From: Candidatus Hydrogenedentota bacterium
GTDB lineage: Bacteria > Hydrogenedentota > Hydrogenedentia > Hydrogenedentales > CAITNO01
DNA: 59,829 nt
Direction: 5' to 3'
NCBI GenBank assembly: GCA_012730045.1
Contig: JAAYBR010000104.1
Coordinates: 1-59,829, forward strand
The notes under the pieces are model-generated. The model did not search any database. It was not told the DNA's origin and was given only the letters and a program-made list of their open reading frames with translations. How positions within the stretch are numbered: the first letter of the stretch is position 1; every line of letters starts with the position of its first letter. Below are positions 8,951 through 10,803 of this stretch, piece after piece. A program made the translations under genes and the position numbers.

Positions 8951-9208
8951 CTAATACCCGGCAAAGACCACGCGGAGGATCCACAGGCCGAGGAGGACGA
9001 GCAGGGGCGACCAGTCGGGCACGCCGTGCGTGGGGGGGAACAGTTTCCGGCAGCCGCGCAGGAGGGGGTCCGTGAGGGGGGGCACGAAACGCAGATAGCC
9101 GCGGTGCAGGTCCACGGCGAGCGCGCGGGCGCTCCACCGCAGCAGCACGGCCATCATGCACAGCGTCAGGGCGCTGCCAATCGTGACTCTCAGGACGATG
9201 AGCGCCAT
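8951..9208 (-). CDS. YggT-family membrane protein
   Basis: The 85-residue protein has two membrane segments (about 2-24 and 66-84) around a loop with FVPPLTDPLLRGCRKLFPP. That pattern of Pro-rich loop and D-P-L/I is typical of the YggT family, though family members often carry two copies of the unit. The cellular role is poorly known; in other bacteria it is linked to osmotic tolerance, cell division or cofactor distribution. Its start overlaps the end of thpR by 19 nt, which indicates coupling. Confidence 0.75.
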   Translation of the reverse strand: MALIVLRVTIGSALTLCMMAVLLRWSARALAVDLHRGYLRFVPPLTDPLLRGCRKLFPPTHGVPDWSPLLVLLGLWILRVVFAGY

Positions 9209-10035
9209 TGCAGGGAAATCTCCTCCAGGCGCGTGTACACCGCGCCGCCGGGCTTCAGTTCGCTTTGGAATAATGCCACGGCGGGCGCGGGGAATGCATC
9301 CCCGAAGCGCGGCGCGGCGGCGGCCAACTCCGCGAAGGCCTCCAGCAGGGGGGCCAGCCCGCGCGGGGCGCGCACCCGGCCCAGGGTCAGGTGGGGATGA
9401 AACGGCTTCGGCTCGGGGGACAGGCCGATGGCCGCCGCGCAGGCCTCGGCGGCCCGCTGGACCGCCAAAAGGTCGCCCGACAGCGCCCTCACCCCCGCCC
9501 ACAGCACCGACGGGCGGCGCAGGCTGGGAAACGCGCCCAGCCCCTCCGCCACGAGTTCAAGCGGAGGCAATGCCCCTAATCGCCGGATAAGGCGAGGGAC
9601 GGGATCAGGTGCGCCATGTGAACGCGCCGGAGAATGCGTGATGTCGTGAAAGGGATGCTCCTCACCCACCGGGTGAAACTGTCCTGCCGGGCAAGAAGAG
9701 GGCGCGGCAAGCGGCGCCCCTACCTGCCCATGCCCCGGGCACACACGAAGACACCGGGAATCCTCTTGTAGGGGCGCCGCTTGCTGCGCCCTGGAGCGGA
9801 CGCATGGGCCGTCGCTTGTCCGGAGATCCGGGAATGCGGACACCAGCACCCGCAGGCGCGCCGCATACGCGGACGCCTGCTCAGGCGTCACCTCGCCGAG
9901 AAAGCGCAGGGTCAGGTGAAGATTCTCCGGCCGCACCCAGGACACCTGCCCGCCCAGGGGGCGCAGCGAGGCGATGCACTCCCCCAGCGCCGCCCGCGCG
10001 GCGGGGCCGGTCTCGAAGGCCGCGAAACAGCGCAT
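9190..10035 (-). CDS. thpR: RNA 2',3'-cyclic phosphodiesterase carrying an in-frame repeat insertion
   Basis: The family (LigT/ThpR, 2H phosphoesterase) has about 180-190 residues and two HxTx motifs. Both are here: His40-Leu-Thr42 in ENLHLTLRFLG and a second HLTL in FHPHLTLGRVR. The protein is 281 residues because about 85 extra codons lie between the segment ending LVSAF (about residue 69) and PPLELVAEGLGAF. That extra DNA (roughly 9567-9830) contains a 25-bp inverted repeat at 9699-9792 and reads as low-quality, Arg/Pro/His-rich sequence. The reading frame is intact across it, so the enzyme may still fold with a surface loop, or may be inactive. A dispersed palindromic repeat lies between it and nnrE. 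Confidence 0.85.
   Translation of the reverse strand: MRCFAAFETGPAARAALGECIASLRPLGGQVSWVRPENLHLTLRFLGEVTPEQASAYAARLRVLVSAFPDLRTSDGPCVRSRAQQAAPLQEDSRCLRVCPGHGQVGAPLAAPSSCPAGQFHPVGEEHPFHDITHSPARSHGAPDPVPRLIRRLGALPPLELVAEGLGAFPSLRRPSVLWAGVRALSGDLLAVQRAAEACAAAIGLSPEPKPFHPHLTLGRVRAPRGLAPLLEAFAELAAAAPRFGDAFPAPAVALFQSELKPGGAVYTRLEEISLQWRSSS
9699..9792. repeat. Inverted repeat inside thpR
   Basis: Arms 9699-9723 and 9768-9792 are 25-bp reverse complements with a single mismatch and a 44-bp spacer. They form the core of the extra DNA in thpR. The arm sequence (GCAAGCGGCGCCCCTAC at one end) has the look of a small non-autonomous or REP-like element. Confidence 0.85.
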
Positions 10036-10057
10036 CGTTCAGATCCTCCGCGTCAAA

Positions 10058-10086
10058 GACAAGGCCGGCGGGACGCCGGCGCTACG
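10058..10086 (+). repeat. Dispersed 29-bp palindromic repeat, single copy
   Basis: Flank GACAAGGC, core CGGCGGGACGCCG, flank GCGCTACG. The core is a perfect 5-bp stem with a GGA loop, extended by a C-G pair from the flanks. It lies in the gap between nnrE and thpR. It has the same architecture as the copies at 212, 263, 27063 and 27116 but a different stem. Confidence 0.8.
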
Positions 10087-10109
10087 GGGAAGAAACAAGT
10101 GCATGGGGA

Positions 10110-10793
10110 TCACCTGTCGTCATTCGGGATGAGCGTTCCCAGTCCCTCCAGGCAGGCTTCGGGGATGCCGATGTCCGCCACGATAATGCGCCCTGTGAAG
10201 GGGCGGGCGCTTTCCGCGAGCAGGCCGCGCTTGAGGCAGGCAAAGGTCACGGTGGTGTCGGCGCGCACGACGGCGCCGCCCGGTTCGCCCGTGTCGGCGT
10301 TGAGCCCCGAGGGGATGTCCACCGCCACGGTGGGAATCCCCTCCGGCCAGGCCTCTAGGACGGCGCGCGCCGCGCCCCTCACCCCGCCCGCGAAGCCGGT
10401 GCCGAGCAGGGCGTCCACCAGCACGCCGGACCCGCGCAGGGCGGCGGTCTCGCGGGCCGCCGCCTCCGGGTCGGACGCGGGGACCACGACGCCGCCGAGG
10501 CGTTCGTAGGCGCGCAGGAAAACCGCCGCGTCGCCCGTGACCGCCGCCGGGTCGCCGATGAGAACTGCACGCACGGCGCGGCCCGCGCACAGGGCGAGGC
10601 GGGCGACGACAAAGCCGTCCCCGCCGTTGTTGCCCTTCCCGCAGACGACGCCCACGGGCCCCGGCCACCGCGCGGCCTCGGCCCAGACGGCCGCGCCGGC
10701 GGTGTTCATCAGGACCGCGCCGGGAATCCCGACGTCCTCGATGCACCGCCGGTCGGCCTCGCGCATCTCCGCCGCCGTCAGCACACGCCGCAT
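10110..10793 (-). CDS. nnrE: NAD(P)H-hydrate epimerase (YjeF N-terminal domain)
   Basis: The 227-residue protein is a stand-alone YjeF_N domain. The start is MRRVLTAAEMREADRR, the loop GKGNNGGDG is at about 52-60, and DALLGTGF and VDIPSGLNADTG follow. The family interconverts R- and S-hydrates of damaged NAD(P)H so that the partner dehydratase (YjeF C-terminal domain) can repair them. The dehydratase is not fused and not in this window. It lies 10 nt after the DUF4139 gene. Confidence 0.9.
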   Translation of the reverse strand: MRRVLTAAEMREADRRCIEDVGIPGAVLMNTAGAAVWAEAARWPGPVGVVCGKGNNGGDGFVVARLALCAGRAVRAVLIGDPAAVTGDAAVFLRAYERLGGVVVPASDPEAAARETAALRGSGVLVDALLGTGFAGGVRGAARAVLEAWPEGIPTVAVDIPSGLNADTGEPGGAVVRADTTVTFACLKRGLLAESARPFTGRIIVADIGIPEACLEGLGTLIPNDDR

Positions 10794-10803
10794 GCCTCCT
10801 CCC

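Follow-up and report, generated by a model that had tools for sequence, protein, structure and literature searches.

An apparently tolerated, probably recent in-frame insertion of a REP-bearing, MITE-like element in thpR of a Hydrogenedentota bacterium

Introduction

The repeat described here resembles several kinds of short bacterial repeats. In the available portion of Di Nocera et al. (2013; PMC3733652), GTAG REPs are characterized by a stem of 5-13 and a loop of 2-20, and they occur as tail-to-tail dimers with spacers of 20-100 bp and in clusters. According to the same portion of that article, they are mostly intergenic, with few in-frame intragenic copies, and the larger REP clusters encode 43-82 aa. 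Rickettsia palindromic elements (RPE-1 and others), found in frame within unrelated protein genes, measure ~150 bp, and of the 44 RPE copies of Rickettsia conorii nearly half are intragenic, as given in the accessible parts of PMC10969869 and PMC3733652. Bacterial MITEs with in-frame intragenic copies include BOX, ERIC and QMITE1, and truncated MITE copies resemble REPs (review PMC10969869). In-frame intragenic GTAG REPs, RPEs and MITEs are already known, and the case reported below adds an example from Hydrogenedentota, a lineage for which no literature on REPs or MITEs was found.

The window analyzed is a stretch of 59,829 nt (contig JAAYBR010000104.1, forward strand) from the metagenome-assembled genome GCA_012730045.1 of a Candidatus Hydrogenedentota bacterium. 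An initial annotation, made from the letters of this window, had placed a palindromic element at positions 9567-9835, in frame inside thpR, and had proposed either a domesticated protein segment or a very recent insertion left open by chance.

Results

The thpR gene and its product

The thpR-like gene (9190-10035, minus strand), a member of the RNA 2',3'-cyclic phosphodiesterase/LigT family, matches Pfam LigT_PEase (E 1.1e-25) and is adjoined by a YjeF_N gene at 10110-10793. Its open reading frame encodes 281 aa including the insert and contains no internal stop, as originally annotated. The product has the features of ThpR/LigT 2H phosphoesterases, namely two HxTx motifs and a LigT fold. Both motifs are indeed kept: the first, HLTL, occupies residues 40-43 (9907-9918, minus strand), and the second, HLTL within HPHLTL (residues 213-218), occupies residues 215-218 (9382-9393, minus strand), with H40, T42, H215 and T217 invariant in an alignment of 52 sequences. 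The extra stretch lies between residues ~67 and ~155. In the AlphaFold model built with the 52 sequences (pTM 0.73), it is positioned between helix 2 and the following strand and has a pLDDT of about 40, with residues 69-140 below 50, versus about 95 for the core (blocks mostly 94-98). With TM-scores of 0.74-0.87 on the target, the best PDB matches of this model retrieved by Foldseek are ThpR/LigT structures, including the 2'-5' RNA ligase-like proteins of Pyrococcus and Thermus, drCPDase and E. coli LigT.

Comparison of the conserved parts of thpR with those of a same-genus genome (G001) gave a dN of 0.048 and a dS of 0.169; the resulting ratio of 0.28 cannot exclude a recent loss of function, since it averages over the time before the insertion. 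For the neighboring YjeF_N gene the ratio was 0.23. Taken with the retained motifs and the predicted core fold, the lack of a decay sign in dN/dS indicates that the enzyme core is intact. At the C-terminus (9190-9211), an indel of 4 nt close to the stop codon makes the tail slightly longer than in G001 (SLQWRSSS versus PLGG).

Filled and empty sites

Positions 9567-9836 of the window (270 nt) are represented by 6 nt at the corresponding locus of G001 (L010), which makes a net addition of 264 nt, equal to 88 codons. The annotated borders were thus correct within a few bases, but the count of ~85 codons was not. The G001 locus is collinear with positions 9108-10799 of the window at high identity, both flanks of the insert included (coding flanks ~92% identical), and its ThpR consists of 189 aa. 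The insert is likewise absent at the thpR locus of 29 out of 29 relatives with fetched loci and from 51 wider ThpR homologues of 173-190 aa, belonging to many phyla. Among the relatives and homologues examined, neither a second genome carrying the insert at this site nor a long linker lacking the repeat was found. The thpR locus is therefore the site of an insertion polymorphism.

The borders carry a candidate 8-nt target-site duplication, with the left copy GGCAATGC at 9566-9573 and the right copy GGGAATGC, 7/8 identical, at 9830-9837; their spacing equals the exact insertion length, and the empty site in G001 reads GGCTAACC. The duplication is tentative, because it is one mismatch off and because a second full-length copy, on contig C16, fits just a run of C as its sole candidate. 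In G001 the C16 site is empty as well, with a net difference of 263 nt, which implies that the ~260-bp unit is, or was, mobile in its entirety. The near flanks of the copy on contig C2 have no clear counterpart in G001, so that this copy gives neither a filled nor an empty site for comparison. The copy on contig C48 is older, as the element appears common to G001 on one side. The proposal of a very recent insertion that stays open thus finds support in the same-genus empty site and in the near-perfect direct repeat at the borders.

Structure of the inserted element

The insert belongs to a family of ~260-bp repeats bounded by terminal inverted repeats (TIRs) and bearing REPs, and the full-length element occupies positions 9573-9833 in frame, within the 9567-9836 gap relative to the empty site. 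The left imperfect TIR, CCCTAATCGCCGGATAAGGCGAGGG (9574-9598, plus strand), has the same end in the copies on contigs C16, C63 and C139, and the right imperfect TIR lies at 9809-9832 on the minus strand (reverse complement CCCGGATCTCCGGACAAGCGACGG). The imperfect inverted ends of the C16 copy are CCCTGATCGCCGGATAAG and CCCGGATTGCCGGATAAG. These TIRs are ~20 bp long and score beyond chance: in three copies, 2, 1 and 0 of 1000 shuffled sequences, respectively, did as well.

The central part of the element is a pair of GTAG-tagged palindromes. REP arm 1 (9700-9723) is read on the minus strand and REP arm 2, GTAGGGGCGCCGCTTGCTGCGCCC (9768-9791), on the plus strand, so that the two form a tail-to-tail dimer with GTAG inside and a 44-nt spacer. 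As inverted arms, they extend over 25 nt each (9699-9723 and 9768-9792), are 96% complementary and have 44 nt between them, in agreement with the 25-bp inverted repeats first annotated; the palindrome stood, but the whole element proved larger than that annotation implied, being a TIR-bounded repeat that carries the REP pair. Each arm has the structure GTAG-GGGCGC-CGCTTGCT-GCGCCC, with an unpaired GTAG, a stem of 6 and a loop of 8. In the thpR mRNA, the REP pair is predicted to form a hairpin of -69 kcal/mol over 102 nt (z = -6.4). A structured RNA from Rfam was considered as the identity of the insert, and no match was obtained.

Distribution of the repeat family

The insert matched 122 places on many contigs of its own genome (BLAST), and the REP arm occurred 159 times at no more than 2 mismatches, versus 0 occurrences of a reversed control pattern. 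Together with the z-score of the hairpin, these counts show that the element is no product of chance. Even the full-length copy closest to the thpR insert shares only 85% identity with it. Full-length copies are few: C16, C63 and C2, along with some that carry duplications inside or have lost part of one end. Most copies consist of the central arm pair alone, with or without the right end. In 40 fetched places other than thpR, 35 of 56 adjacent arm pairs were tail-to-tail, with GTAG inside, and none was head-to-head; the spacers were mostly 43-45 nt. Six arms in the same orientation, with a period of 59-60 bp, are found on contig C109 (6902-7223), unlike the usual tail-to-tail pairs. Arm arrays also lie at the ends of contigs C26, C39, C89, C116 and C137, and the family therefore probably breaks the draft assembly, making the copy number an underestimate.

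Outside this genome, G001 was the sole holder of the long element among 60 relatives, two others (G006 and G038) giving weak, arm-sized matches, and the search for plasmid-borne relatives of the element found none. The exact 24-nt arm is present in 14 stretches of IMG/VR viral-contig records (L195-L208), which could represent true viruses, but also prophages or pieces of host DNA.

A second, different GTAG-type REP, CCCCGTAGCGCCGGCGTCCCGCCGGCCTTG, is located at about 10056-10087 (minus strand) and recurs at 81 places in the genome. It lies in a 69-nt stretch (10032-10100) just upstream of the thpR start codon. This stretch and the thpR insert are both missing in G001, which makes two separate repeat insertions at this one gene since the split.

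Coding context of the copies

The coding context was assessed in 41 places, which are the best-matching ones rather than all 159 arms. Only at thpR was the coding signal of one side taken up in the same frame on the other, GC by codon position being 74/57/90 before the insert and 76/57/87 after it. About 1/6 of the frames of a typical full-length copy are stop-free, and with so few stops many long open reading frames span copies elsewhere. These other candidate intragenic copies were rejected, as Pfam domains were matched on one side only and coding periodicity broke down on one side or both. Among the 41 places, thpR is the one clear exception in an otherwise intergenic family.

Candidate transposases

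Five genes of the genome match Pfam Y1_Tnp. Mobilization of the REP by its own RAYT was considered and rejected, as none of the five is flanked by a thpR-type REP in the ~1.5 kb on either side, as far as the contigs extend, an absence that in a draft genome is not proof. An autonomous insertion sequence sharing these TIRs was also sought, and a pattern search of the draft genome detected no TIR pair at an IS-like distance. A single, degenerate TIR-like sequence occurs ~0.4 kb downstream of the Y1_Tnp gene on contig C41 (L079, about 1486-1932). The open reading frames on either side of that gene contain similar peptides (LHPSG and STPEGW), an arrangement suggesting that the gene has its own flanking inverted repeats, unrelated to the thpR element.

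Discussion

The arms of the thpR element correspond to GTAG REPs as described in the available portion of Di Nocera et al. (2013; PMC3733652), down to the tail-to-tail dimers and the occasional copy within a gene: an unpaired GTAG stands beside a stem-loop, the copies are numerous, dispersed and mainly intergenic, and dimers have opposite orientation and short spacers. Unlike the REPs in that portion of the article, the thpR dimer is contained in a ~260-bp unit with its own TIRs, and the host belongs to Hydrogenedentota, a phylum absent from those named there. It further differs from RAYT-mobilized REPs in that no RAYT gene flanked by such a REP was found. The likeness to RPEs, drawn from their description in the accessible parts of PMC10969869 and PMC3733652, concerns a palindromic repeat in frame within a protein gene, adding tens of residues; the differences are in size, RPEs being ~150 bp, and in frequency, with one of 41 examined places intragenic here versus nearly half of 44 in Rickettsia conorii. 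As with MITEs (PMC10969869), the element is short, TIR-bounded, mostly intergenic and once fused in frame with a host gene, and its mobility is seen from two empty sites in G001 (thpR and C16). Unlike MITEs, its internal part is a REP dimer, its parental insertion sequence was not found in the draft genome, and its target-site duplication is tentative. The whole unit, being short and having TIRs and empty sites, is MITE-like in structure.

We consider it very probable that a non-autonomous, REP-bearing MITE-like element recently inserted in frame into thpR, where it is apparently tolerated. This reading competes with the domestication proposed by the initial annotation, in which selection maintains the ~88 inserted residues as a loop or linker with a function in ThpR. 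The frame open through 88 codons, the intact catalytic motifs and the location in a permissive loop all agree with domestication. However, comparison of the thpR copy with seven full-length or nearly full-length copies revealed no third-position excess (e.g., 13/24/15 versus C16), so that nothing indicates selection on the inserted peptide; such between-copy differences mostly record divergence from before the insertion, and the pattern is the one expected of non-coding drift. Moreover, the insert is modeled as disordered, it occurs in no examined homologue, and about one frame in six of a full-length copy is stop-free anyway. Domestication is accordingly very unlikely. Slightly less likely still is a selected REP-dimer loop, in which the coding-strand hairpin or the disordered loop would regulate ThpR expression or RNA binding; if true, this would be a protein innovation from one transposition step.

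A somewhat better, though still improbable, alternative is a pseudogene in the making, with thpR inactivated or silenced through misfolding or the strong mRNA hairpin. The stability of that hairpin within the coding sequence and the second REP-type repeat just upstream of the start codon, missing in G001, speak for it. ThpR is, to our knowledge, non-essential in known laboratory bacteria, which also counts toward such decay. Against it, thpR has neither a stop nor a frameshift, its conserved residues are retained, its dN/dS is similar to that of its neighbor, and its core is predicted to fold normally. Misplacement of a repeat copy within thpR during metagenome assembly is the least credible explanation and can be considered highly improbable. 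Members of this repeat family are often found where contigs end, and hence do confuse the assembler, but the flanks of the insert are two halves of one gene in correct order and frame, the inserted copy is distinct from its nearest full-length relative, and a chimeric join would need to preserve both the length modulo 3 and the frame.

Under the preferred reading of a tolerated insertion, a transposase acting in trans on the TIRs would have moved the ~260-bp unit into thpR after the species split from the sampled sister species. The orientation, phase and length of the arriving element would have kept the thpR frame, and it appears to have landed at a place in ThpR that tolerates extension. 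As a rough estimate, the chance of an open insertion would be ~1/6 of the orientation and phase choices multiplied by 1/3 of the lengths. In an expressed gene, survival would then be limited to frame-keeping insertions within a tolerant loop. ThpR is probably still made, with a normal fold and, according to the model, a disordered loop of about 70-88 residues, and we infer that both its production and its activity persist with the insert, although the hairpin in the mRNA could reduce expression.

The thpR insertion changes no general picture. It provides a clean filled/empty pair for a REP-bearing MITE-like element in frame within a well-understood enzyme, and the ends and copy number of the repeat family are now defined in a lineage for which we found no earlier description. 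The case lends support to the idea that such insertions persist if they hit surface loops, and ThpR with and without the loop offers a simple test case for activity.
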